Assembly: GCA_002733885.1 (NCBI GenBank)
Contig: NVXJ01000002.1
Location: 60,025-110,775 of the forward strand
Direction of reading: 5' to 3'
DNA: 50,751 nt
Source of the DNA: Arcobacter sp.
GTDB taxonomy: Bacteria > Campylobacterota > Campylobacteria > Campylobacterales > Sulfurimonadaceae
A program made the translations under genes and the position numbers. Below, in pieces: positions 20,052 through 37,856 of the stretch (positions are counted from its first letter, which is position 1; every line of letters begins with the position of its first letter). The notes beneath the pieces are model-generated. The model ran no database searches, was not told the DNA's origin, and saw nothing but the letters and a program-made list of their open reading frames with translations.

Positions 20052-21398
20052 ATGGCCAAGAAAAAGAAAGTTTTATTTGAATGTCAGCACTGTGGTTTGA
20101 CCTCTGCTAAGTGGATGGGAAAATGTACCAACTGTGGTACATGGGATTCCTTAGTTGAGCTTAATGAACAAGAACAAGAGATTGTAAAACTTACTTCAAA
20201 GACTTCGGGTTCAAGTAAGGCCAAGGCTATTACAGAAATCCTTGAAACTGAGGTTGAGAGGTTTTCTTCTAATGATGATGAATTAGACCTTGTTCTTGGG
20301 GGTGGAATTGTTCCGGGTTCACTTACTCTTATTGGGGGAAGTCCTGGTGTTGGAAAGTCAACCCTACTTTTAAAAATCGCTTCTAACCTTGCTAAACAAG
20401 GTAAAAATGTTTTATATGTAACAGGGGAAGAGTCAGAAGGCCAAATTAAACTTCGTGCCAATAGACTTGATGCCAATAATAAAAACCTTTATTTACTAAG
20501 TGAAATACGCTTAGAGCAGGTACTTTTAGAACTTACCGAGCGTTCTTATGAATGTATTATTATTGACTCTATTCAGACCTTATATTCTGACGCCATTTCT
20601 TCTGCTCCGGGTTCCGTTACTCAAGTAAGGCAAATAACCTTTGATCTTATGCGTATTGCTAAAGAAAAGAAGATTGCAATTTTTCTAATTGGTCATATTA
20701 CAAAAGAAGGTTCCATTGCAGGACCACGTGTACTAGAGCATATGGTAGATACCGTTTTATACTTTGAAGGTGATTCTTCTCAGGAATTAAGAATTCTTCG
20801 TGGTTTTAAAAACCGTTTTGGACCCACCTCTGAAATAGGTGTTTTTGAGATGAAGGCAGAAGGACTCGTTTCTGCAAAAAATATATCCTCACGTTTTTTC
20901 TCTAAAACAAATGCCCAACCGGGTTCAGCACTCACTGTTATTATGGAAGGTTCTAGACCTATTATCTTAGAAGTACAAGCCCTTGTATCTGAATCTCACG
21001 CACCAAATCCTAAACGTCAAGCAACAGGATTTGAAAATAACAGGCTAAACATGCTTCTTGCCTTACTAGAACGAAAACTAGAAATACCTCTAAATCAATA
21101 TGATGTGTTTATCAATATAACAGGTGGTATCAAAATCACAGAAACCTCTGCTGACTTAGCAATACTAGCCGCCATCATCAGTAGCTTTAGAAACAGAGCC
21201 ATTTCAAAAGAAACCATTTTCATAGGTGAAGTATCCCTAGTAGGCGATGTAAGAGAAGTCTACCAACTAGACCCAAGACTAAAAGAATCCGCCTTACACA
21301 AGTTTTCAAAGGCCCTAATAGCAAAAAAACCCGCCGACACCTTTGGTATTAAATGTTATGAGGTAAACGAGGTAAGTAAGCTTATTGATTGGATGTGA
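20052..21398 (+). CDS. radA: DNA repair protein RadA
   Basis: Zinc finger CQHCGLTSAKWMGKCTNCGTW, GGSPGVGKSTLLLK, KNRFGPTSEIGVFEM. Confidence 0.97.
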   Translation: MAKKKKVLFECQHCGLTSAKWMGKCTNCGTWDSLVELNEQEQEIVKLTSKTSGSSKAKAITEILETEVERFSSNDDELDLVLGGGIVPGSLTLIGGSPGVGKSTLLLKIASNLAKQGKNVLYVTGEESEGQIKLRANRLDANNKNLYLLSEIRLEQVLLELTERSYECIIIDSIQTLYSDAISSAPGSVTQVRQITFDLMRIAKEKKIAIFLIGHITKEGSIAGPRVLEHMVDTVLYFEGDSSQELRILRGFKNRFGPTSEIGVFEMKAEGLVSAKNISSRFFSKTNAQPGSALTVIMEGSRPIILEVQALVSESHAPNPKRQATGFENNRLNMLLALLERKLEIPLNQYDVFINITGGIKITETSADLAILAAIISSFRNRAISKETIFIGEVSLVGDVREVYQLDPRLKESALHKFSKALIAKKPADTFGIKCYEVNEVSKLIDWM

Positions 21399-21477
21399 GT
21401 TCGGAAAATTAAACGCCCACTTCTGGGCGTTTATCCGAACGAAACCGTAGGGGATGTGCCGAAGGCTTAACATCAAT
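21399..21477 (+). repeat. Structured intergenic repeat, copy A
   Basis: GTTCGGA..TAAACGCCCA-CTTC-TGGGCGTTTA..TCCGAAC hairpin followed by ACGAAACCGTAGGGGATGTGCCGAAGGCTTAACATCAAT. Confidence 0.65.
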
Positions 21478-21505
21478 AAAAAAAGCGAAGCTTTCTCCAC
21501 TAAAA

Positions 21506-21585
21506 GTGAACGACACCTGCGTGTCGTTCACCTGTGCGAAACCGAAGGTGATGTGCCCCCTGGCACCACCGAAGGCCTAAGCAAT
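21506..21585 (+). repeat. Structured intergenic repeat, copy B
   Basis: GTGAACGACAC-CTGC-GTGTCGTTCAC, 4 nt, GCGAAACCGAA, second hairpin GGTG-at-GTGCC-CCCT-GGCAC-CACC, GAAGGCCTAAGCAAT. Confidence 0.7.
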
Positions 21586-21813
21586 TCAAGAAGTAAAACC
21601 TCTTCTTTCCAAAAATGAACCAACATCCGCCTAATATAAAAAATACAAGGCATTAACTACCTAAAAACACCCCTCTTTATCTATCCTACATTTCCAAAAC
21701 AACACAAAAACCACAAACTTTAAATCATCACTCCAAAACTATACAAATTCACTACTCAGATTTATCATTTCTCTAGTATAATCTAAATATATATACTATT
21801 AAGGACTACTTTC

Positions 21814-35784: not shown

Positions 35785-36870
35785 ATGCATACAATTAAAG
35801 ATTTACACAAATATTCTCATAATCTTAATGTCTTATATGTTGAAGATGATAAAGACCTGAGAGAAGAAACAACCATACTTTTTAAAATGCTTTTTAAAGA
35901 CATTGATACAGCTGAAGATGGAGAGATAGGTTTAGATCAATATAATCAAAAGTCTTATGACTTGGTTATCTCTGATGTTAACATGCCTAACATGAATGGC
36001 ATAGATATGTGTAAGAAGATAAGAGAAGTTAATCCTGAACAAAAGATATCTATTGTATCTGCACATGACGAGTCTTCTATTTTAATGGACCTCATTAAGG
36101 CAGGGGCAGATGGTTTTATACTTAAACCTATGCATATGGATGACTTAATTATTGCCTTATATCCTGTGTGTAGAGATGCATATACACAAATAGTTAATAT
36201 AGAACTTGTAAATGAGTTAAATGAAAAGAATGAAATACTTCAAGAACAAAATAAAAAGTTGCGTTCCTCAGGCAATACCATAGAAACAAAACACCAACAA
36301 TTAGGTGAACTCATTCAAGAAAAAAATGATTGTCTAAACAAGGAAGAAAAAAAAGAGTTAAATGTAGCTGAAGAGGTATTACAAGACTATTTTGAAGAAG
36401 ATGTAGACGAAGGGGAAGAGAATGTAGTCTTCTTAAGCGATCATTGTGCAGACCTCTCAGAAATTTTTATGGAAATACCTGAAATCATCTCAGCCTACGC
36501 AGAAAATCCTGACGAAAATGAGGTCCAGAAAATTTCAGGACTTTTATCTAAGGCTGCTTCTGTACTCGTGTATTATTCCCCCTATCTAGACCTTTTATCT
36601 ACAAGCTTCACAGAACTTTCTGTTACCTTAGAAAATAACTTAGAAACCTTTATAGAAATTATGAAAGTTAATCCCCAGTCTGTATTAATGCTTTTTGACG
36701 CGGTGAGTGCGGATATGGAAAGGTATATAGAAAGATTTGCGGTTGAGTCTTTAGCTATGAAAAATATCCATCATATACATGAACCAACGGCCCTTAGTAT
36801 TCAACAGATTATTACACTCATCCTTCCGCCTCCAGAAGATGAAGGAACAGATGATATTTTTGACTTTTAA
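35785..36870 (+). CDS. Response regulator with uncharacterised helical C-terminal region ending DDIFDF
   Basis: REC: VLYVEDDKDLREE, YDLVISDVNMPNMNGIDM, DGFILKPM. Confidence 0.88.
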   Translation: MHTIKDLHKYSHNLNVLYVEDDKDLREETTILFKMLFKDIDTAEDGEIGLDQYNQKSYDLVISDVNMPNMNGIDMCKKIREVNPEQKISIVSAHDESSILMDLIKAGADGFILKPMHMDDLIIALYPVCRDAYTQIVNIELVNELNEKNEILQEQNKKLRSSGNTIETKHQQLGELIQEKNDCLNKEEKKELNVAEEVLQDYFEEDVDEGEENVVFLSDHCADLSEIFMEIPEIISAYAENPDENEVQKISGLLSKAASVLVYYSPYLDLLSTSFTELSVTLENNLETFIEIMKVNPQSVLMLFDAVSADMERYIERFAVESLAMKNIHHIHEPTALSIQQIITLILPPPEDEGTDDIFDF

Positions 36871-36896
36871 TTGTGAGAAGCGTAAAATAAAGGTGA

Positions 36897-36986
36897 GCAA
36901 CGTTAAATAAAGGTGAACTGCTTCACCTTTATAGTTGCGGAACCGAAGTCGATGTACGTTCACGTACCGACGAAGGCCTTAGCAAT
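36897..36986 (+). repeat. Structured intergenic repeat, copy C
   Basis: GCAAC..ATAAAGGTGAA-CTGC-TTCACCTTTAT..GTTGC, GCGGAACCGAA, second hairpin GTCG-at-GTACG-TTCA-CGTAC-CGAC, GAAGGCCTTAGCAAT. Confidence 0.7.
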
Positions 36987-37025
36987 GACAACCTAAGTGT
37001 CAATATATTTCTCAAATAAAAAGTA

Positions 37026-37856
37026 TTAAGAAGAAAGTTCTTTAATCTTAGCCGTCACCTGCTTAATAATCCAGTCCGGTGTAGAAGCACCCGCACTAAC
37101 ACCACACTCTTGCTTACCCACAAACCATGCCCTATCTAAGTCATCAGGCCCTTCAACAAGATAAGAACTCTCACAATTATCCTTAGAAATTGAATGCAAT
37201 TCCTTTGTATTAGATGAATTTTTCCCACCAATAACAACCATCACATCAGATGCTTGTGCAAGGGTTTTAACCGCATCTTGGTTATCAAAGGTTGCATTAC
37301 AAATGGTGTTAAACACACGAACCTCTTTATGGGAGCGCATAAGGTGATTACATACCTTCATAAACTCATCTACCTTACGTGTGGTTTGAGCAACAACGGC
37401 TATTTTTTCATAAAAAAACTTACCCTCAAGTTCTTCTACAGATTCAACAACAGTAACCCCTTTTTCTGCGTAAGACATAACACCCTTAATTTCAGGATGA
37501 TTTACATCTCCAAAGATAACAATGTCATATCCTTGCTTGCTCATCTCTTCACAGATTTGTTGAGGCTTAGTGACATAAGGACAGGTTGCGTCAATAACGT
37601 CTATCTTTTTCTTATGAAGTAAGGCTAGTTCATCCTTAGGTATACCATGGGTACGGATAACAGCCTTATCTCCTTCCTTAAAGGTAGAAATGTCTTCAAC
37701 CAAAGAAACTTTAAAGTCTATCTTTAAACGATCAATCTCTTTTCCATTATGAATTAAGGGACCATAGGTAGCGGCACCAACATTTTCTTCTGCAATTTTA
37801 ATCGCGCGTTTCACACCAAAACAAAATCCATAATTTTCAGCTAATTTTACATTCAT
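37026..37856 (-). CDS. ispH: 4-hydroxy-3-methylbut-2-enyl diphosphate reductase
   Basis: AENYGFCFGVKRAI, IRTHGIPKDE, DATCPYV, VSAGASTPDWII. Confidence 0.97.
   Translation of the reverse strand: MNVKLAENYGFCFGVKRAIKIAEENVGAATYGPLIHNGKEIDRLKIDFKVSLVEDISTFKEGDKAVIRTHGIPKDELALLHKKKIDVIDATCPYVTKPQQICEEMSKQGYDIVIFGDVNHPEIKGVMSYAEKGVTVVESVEELEGKFFYEKIAVVAQTTRKVDEFMKVCNHLMRSHKEVRVFNTICNATFDNQDAVKTLAQASDVMVVIGGKNSSNTKELHSISKDNCESSYLVEGPDDLDRAWFVGKQECGVSAGASTPDWIIKQVTAKIKELSS

Follow-up and report, generated by a model that had tools for sequence, protein, structure and literature searches.

The window, which denotes here the whole stretch of DNA of 50,751 nucleotides that was analysed, corresponds to C51:60025-110775 of a 3.15-Mb genome in 60 contigs (G000). 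It contains three copies (A, B and C) of a structured repeat. Copies A and B follow the gene radA (20052-21398, + strand), which encodes an AAA_25 (KaiC-type ATPase) protein with a LapB zinc ribbon and a ChlI-like C-terminus. Copy C lies between a response-regulator gene (35785-36870, + strand) and the convergent gene ispH (LytB; 37026-37856, - strand), which ends 29 nt after this copy. The RadA protein shows 90% identity to that of the Campylobacterales MAG JAJRQV010000050.1 (L027/G001) and 79-82% identity to those of Sulfuricurvum. In another genome (G018), radA is followed by the same 3' flank as in Sulfuricurvum sp. PD_MW2 and, due to this, the family denoted f1 is likely to be the Sulfurimonas/Sulfuricurvum family. 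The genomes compared in this work are mostly MAGs and the gene calls are open reading frames.

The three copies in the window

A covariance model built from 17 copies of G000 (inclusive of A, B and C) gave exactly three matches in the window, viz. 21396-21485 (A), 21501-21596 (B) and 36894-36997 (C), all on the + strand and all in the places where an initial annotation of this DNA had reported them. The loops of hairpin 1 (CTTC, CTGC and CTGC), the linker rCGrAACCGwAG, the AT bulge in hairpin 2 and the conserved end GAAGGCyTwAgCAAT are also as described there. However, copies A and C start 3 nt earlier than was annotated, at the sequence TGAG, and hairpin 1 is longer than noted, in that its inner stem of 11 bp is joined through an internal loop to an outer stem of 5 bp, the terminal loops being the same. 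The outer stem begins with the pair G21399-C21440 in copy A and G36897-C36938 in copy C.

Translation of radA ends at the very TGA with which copy A begins (21396-21398). Hairpin 1 of this copy (21399-21440, loop CTTC at 21420-21423) is followed by the linker CGAAACCGTAG and the tail CGAAGGCTTAACATCAATA, hairpin 2 being deleted. The lack of most of hairpin 2, which had been noticed in the initial annotation, is indeed a deletion, as the orthologous copy behind radA in JAJRQV010000050.1 (L027, the same sequence as in G001) is complete, with different stem sequences in which the pairing is kept. Copy B is a tandem unit without the TGAG tag and the outer stem; its inner stem (21506-21531, loop CTGC at 21517-21520) is followed by hairpin 2 with the AT bulge (21547-21570) and the end GAAGGCCTAAGCAAT (21571-21585). 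Copy C is complete (107.7 bits with the covariance model) and its TGAG tag (36894-36897) begins 23 nt after the response-regulator stop codon TAA (36868-36870); it contains hairpin 1 (36897-36938, loop CTGC at 36918-36921), hairpin 2 (36948-36971) and the end GAAGGCCTTAGCAAT (36972-36986). Directly before it is found a partial copy of 20 nt (36874-36893, + strand; TGAGAAGCGTAAAATAAAGG), which represents the 5' end of another unit and terminates in AAAGG exactly before TGAG. A 5' fragment of the same kind is present at L110 2039-2062, and it is possible that these fragments result from nested insertion or slippage.

Structure, covariation and distribution of the family

The complete unit, of about 100-140 bp, is made up of TGAG, hairpin 1 (5 + 11 bp, loop CTGC), the linker GGAACCGAAG, hairpin 2 and a GAAGGCC tail. 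Hairpin 2 consists of 4 bp, the AT bulge and 3-5 bp, closed by CC...GG. The 5' tag among 107 copies is TGAG, TGAA or TAAG, and certain other families of the order have GGAG instead; the loop CTGC is seen in 78 of the 103 folded copies, and the sequence of the outer stem is freely variable (GAAGC, GACGC, GCCGC, GTTCGG and others). No match at copies A and B was obtained in Rfam 15, neither above the gathering cut-off nor at E<=5. Integron attC sites were also considered and, judged by the outer stem, the family does not match them, as their conserved R boxes (RYYYAAC...GTTRRRY) would be expected in this stem, which varies freely.

In a plain MAFFT alignment of the 17 copies, 97.0% of the paired cells can pair (74.3% in shuffles), double changes are seen in 20 of the 29 pairs, and the covariation score is 0.551 as against 0.153 for shuffled alignments, 0/500 of which score as high; when the pairing partners are slid, only 29-45% remain paired. 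Similar results were obtained for 15 copies located at the stop codons of radA, argS, RNase J and groEL in different genera (96.6% paired, 21/26 pairs with double changes, score 0.566), where 3 one-sided changed cells are found versus 78 double ones; the copies in both sets are hand-picked and not independent, but the margin is large. The covariation is present in both hairpins and, with 36 matches of the model in G000, the view that these copies form a single modular family with covarying stems is borne out.

However, the changes in the stems are nearly all from one Watson-Crick pair to another, and G-U pairs account for 4.4% of the hairpin-1 pairs in comparison to 10.7% in 24 tRNAs of the same loci (p=5e-7). 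As hairpin template switching or templated repair gives double changes without selection on RNA (PMC8794818), the covariation seen here should not be interpreted as proof of an RNA function. Of the earlier inference, the part that the stems change in sequence yet keep pairing is upheld, whereas its reading as selection on RNA structure is weakened by the low G-U content and the nearly exclusive double changes. DNA hairpin-templated repair could be the source of this pattern, and the preponderance of double Watson-Crick changes together with the scarcity of G-U pairs makes the family a candidate for hairpin-templated mutation upholding palindromes; it is also a warning that covariation by itself need not indicate selection on RNA.

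Concerted evolution within a genome was considered as well, but the similarity of hairpin 1 within a genome (0.74), at orthologous sites (0.69) and among unrelated copies (0.67; coding ends 0.71) differs too weakly for this to be claimed. Tandem arrays often have units with identical hairpin 1 and, in the arrays L126, L219, L225 and L161, adjacent units often share the inner stem of hairpin 1 but differ in the stems of hairpin 2, indicating that the two hairpins evolve separately. After radA in two genomes (L282 in G030 and L283 in G014), a nested palindromic insert is present in the loop of hairpin 1, with the outer and inner stems still paired. Pairing of the 3' tail with the gene end was checked by eye, and no consistent pairing was seen.

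The family extends far beyond the three copies of the initial annotation. The covariance model, whose E-values are rough and whose copy counts are not independent, gave 36 matches in G000 at E<=1 (33 of them at E<=1e-4), and among relatives the element was found in 32/60 genomes with 1-33 copies each, many of them in tandem with a period of 83-105 bp. In a scan of the phylum Campylobacterota, it was detected in 43/249 genomes and 27/56 genera, and the same genes (viz. radA, argS, RNase J and groEL) bear it in several genera. Several copies lie close to contig ends in G000 (contigs C25 and C43), and it is possible that the repeats interrupt the assembly and that more copies exist than were counted. 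A search of viral contigs for the exact core pattern gave 0 matches.

Position at stop codons and presence or absence among relatives

In 45 of the 107 dereplicated copies, radA included, the upstream gene terminates exactly at the TGA of the tag; in 10/107 its stop codon lies within the first 14 nt of the element and in 9/107 it is 5-40 nt before it. To the left of the element is the 3' end of a gene on the same strand in 89/104 copies and, in 12/104, the beginning of a gene on the opposite strand; 47/104 copies are between convergent genes. A location bias 3' of genes, which had been raised as a feature to examine, is thus clearly seen. Further, an A occupies the position 3 nt ahead of the tag in 89/107 copies and the last sense codon is ATG in 34 of the 45 copies with the exact stop-codon position, although these position counts take orthologous sites repeatedly and probably correspond to about 12 different genes ending in ATG and about 9 others. 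Met is an uncommon C-terminal residue, being found there in 2/35 long ORFs of the window, one of which is radA.

Site comparisons for individual genes, evaluated by Fisher counts, show the same preference. Among 30 radA genes, the element is present in 7 of the 13 with an ATG-stop end, and a decayed remnant is seen in one more (G004), whereas it is present in 0/17 genes ending in TTT, TAT or TAC before the stop (filled-or-decayed 8/13 vs 0/17, p=2e-4). In four genomes (G012, G013, G024 and G029), radA does not end in ATG-stop and bears no element, yet elements occur elsewhere in these genomes. The empty ATG sites of radA read TAA or TAG and the filled ones read TGA-G. For argS, 6/18 ATG-stop genes are filled as against 0/11 others (one-sided p=0.04, two-sided 0.06).

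At two other genes the element is present in G000 alone, viz. ppk, which is empty in four congeners, and an NAD-glutamate-dehydrogenase-like gene, which is empty in five. Based on these distributions, copies are gained, or lost in parallel, inside one genus. The empty dehydrogenase sites of G005 and G004 already read TGAG. In IS200/IS605 elements a fixed target is retained 5' of the insertion, and TGAG may similarly be a target that is kept upon insertion, judging from these two sites, although the empty ppk sites read TAA, GGC or TGAC, not TGAG. The 3' junction and any target duplication are not definable from the empty sites compared, as the sequence downstream of them is not alignable. The IS200/IS605 family and its non-autonomous derivatives (PMC8266576) have subterminal hairpins and insert 3' of a fixed target of a few nucleotides, which would match TGAG followed by hairpins; however, here no transposase is found beside any copy, the hairpin units are in tandem and the stem sequences are unconserved.

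Relationship to REP elements and interpretation

The candidate identity of a REP-like element is borne out by the tens of dispersed copies at gene 3' ends. As described in the text of Di Nocera 2013 (PMC3733652), GTAG REPs share with the present family a short tag before a palindrome, complementary variation of the stems, tens of grouped copies and a position beside gene 3' ends (within 20 bp there), where the stop codon is often contributed by the tag (as TAG in those elements and as TGA here). However, by the same text, the tag of those elements is GTAG (with GYRG/GTMG variants) rather than TGAG/GGAG; they consist of a single palindrome of 20-40 bp with stems of 5-13 bp in place of two hairpins in about 100-140 bp with a hairpin 1 of 5 + 11 bp; head-to-tail tandem units, common here, are rare among them; and in at least some genomes their associated RAYT gene is flanked by the repeat, whereas none is so flanked here. 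CGTC REPs, in the account of PMC3733652, are likewise palindromic, tagged at one end and without a dedicated transposase, but they have a CGTC tag, stems of 8-9 bp and one hairpin, as against two hairpins and no CGTC tag here. Due to these differences in tag, in the single short palindrome and in the RAYT flank, the family is not filed as a GTAG or CGTC REP, although it may well work like one despite its different tag and structure. Sulfurovum sp. NBC37-1 is listed in that paper with both GTAG and CGTC REPs, and part of the TGAG family may already have been seen in this strain, the comparison being with the text of PMC3733652. A text search of the literature on REPs in Sulfurimonas or Sulfurovum yielded no account of a TGAG family with two hairpins. 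Knowledge of REPs comes mostly from gamma- and alphaproteobacteria, and their choice of gene ends and effect on translation are still debated. The TGAG family occurs in another phylum, has a stop codon as its first bases, preferred preceding codons and a second covarying hairpin, and its natural presence/absence pairs (radA, argS, ppk and the dehydrogenase gene) make the choice of gene ends and the effect on translation directly testable.

We consider it rather probable that these copies constitute a REP-like miniature repeat family of Campylobacterota, formerly or still mobile, which inserts 3' of TGAG and is transcribed as a hairpin abutting the terminating ribosome. In this interpretation, the presence/absence among congeners shows that copies have reached new sites, in the G000 lineage at least, probably via a single-strand hairpin in the manner of REPs and by some enzyme. 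The two empty dehydrogenase sites and the position statistics suggest that they would land 3' of TGAG, preferably where TGA is a stop codon; the units would then multiply in tandem, and their arms would drift with complementarity kept. As the element is on the coding strand with hairpin 1 directly after the stop, it is expected to form the 3' end of the mRNA upon transcription. According to published footprints, about 12-13 nt, counted from the stop codon, are covered by a ribosome that has this codon in its A site. Such a footprint would take in the outer stem and the internal loop, and the 11-bp inner stem, from about +14, would fold at the edge of the terminating ribosome. Its consequence may be a slowing of termination or recycling, or a block to 3'-5' exonucleases. 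Those E. coli REPs that form a strong mRNA hairpin within 15 nt of a stop codon, where it is expected to meet the terminating ribosome, are reported to cause ribosome stalling and tmRNA tagging (Liang, Rudd and Deutscher 2015, as cited in PMC12306157); in the present family the hairpin follows directly (0 nt), the stop is part of the repeat, and the effect is a predicted one.

Several observations speak against the REP-like interpretation. No cognate transposase is seen, the element flanking none of 31 Y1_Tnp loci, and G014 (a single contig) and G053 (two contigs), which are complete or nearly so, contain copies without any Y1_Tnp gene. A TGAG target alone does not explain the ATG preference and, by our own rough estimate, the occupied stop codons are more than expected for random insertion at TGAG with purifying selection. 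The radA, argS, RNase J and groEL sites are common to several genera and fit old vertical retention too. A vertically inherited cis-acting mRNA element (a 3'-UTR regulator or processing site) under selection for RNA structure, without real mobility, would explain these shared gene ends, the strong covariation at them and the recurrence of gene-specific flanks (e.g. AATAGTYCACC after groEL in G029 and G011). However, it would be difficult to reconcile with ppk and dehydrogenase copies present in one of five or six congeners, with the many unrelated host genes, with the G-U share of 4.4% versus 10.7% in tRNAs, and with a hairpin 1 that is about as similar at orthologous sites (0.69) as at unrelated ones (0.67), coding ends showing 0.71; we regard it as unlikely. 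A similarly low probability is given to the possibility that the elements home to stop codons, chiefly ATG-TGA and TGA followed by G, by means of a non-RAYT enzyme recognising the folded two-hairpin single strand. If true, homing of this kind would make the element always a ribosome-facing 3' structure of the mRNA and leave the protein undamaged.

The tag, hairpin, tandem arrays and location at gene ends would also fit a true GTAG-type REP family with a drifted tag, mobilised by a RAYT (TnpA_REP), as would the two RAYT-like Y1_Tnp genes of G000 and the report of GTAG and CGTC REPs in Sulfurovum noted above from the text of PMC3733652. Y1_Tnp genes are present in 30/60 genomes and in 20/32 of those bearing the element (a weak overlap, p=0.07). 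However, the tag is TGAG (GGAG in certain other families within the order) and never GTAG, for which the E. coli enzyme tolerated no substitution in SELEX (PMC8266576). The RAYT partner envisaged in the initial annotation is likewise not borne out, as the element (E<=1) is found in the flanks of about 1.5 kb of 0/31 Y1_Tnp loci, and the RAYT-like Y1 transposase gene on contig C57 of G000 (L107, 3002-3337) lies between unrelated AATAAAGGGGACAGGGTACTTTA-type repeats, which form a separate family. A drifted GTAG family is judged to be quite improbable. Still less credible, to the point of being very improbable, is a family of intrinsic transcription terminators, which was among the initial candidates and would be consistent with copies at gene ends, 47/104 of them between convergent genes; hairpin 1 runs into the fixed linker CGGAACCG and hairpin 2 into CGAAGGCC, never into a T-run, and no terminator-like site is found on the sense strand inside A, B or C.

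Some copies occur in longer or unusual settings. A composite of about 250-300 bp is common to L130 (G000 C51:217068), L133 (C23:20297) and L134 (C18:20354); it reads TTGGGTAAAC..., contains an extra hairpin AGCTTATGTCC...GACATAAGCT and ends in GTGTGAATAATGTGTAG. These composites were considered as an autonomous version, but they contain no element-encoded ORF, and a gene between two copies in G028, considered as an element gene, is an ordinary cellular reading frame. In G053, a GGAG-tagged relative at L182 (3495-3590), the copy whose context was checked, is located in the 16S-23S spacer, with a tRNA on one side and the 23S gene on the other, and has the same orientation as the rRNA; with the copies at positions 1236078 and 1644911 of the same contig, three copies of equal score are present in this genome. 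Copies at L168 (G030), L265 (G014) and L184 (G039) are beside tRNA 3'-end fragments (CGTCCACCGCGCCA or similar), with a tRNA gene nearby at L168 and L184, and it looks as if duplicated tRNA ends have trapped the element with its flank.
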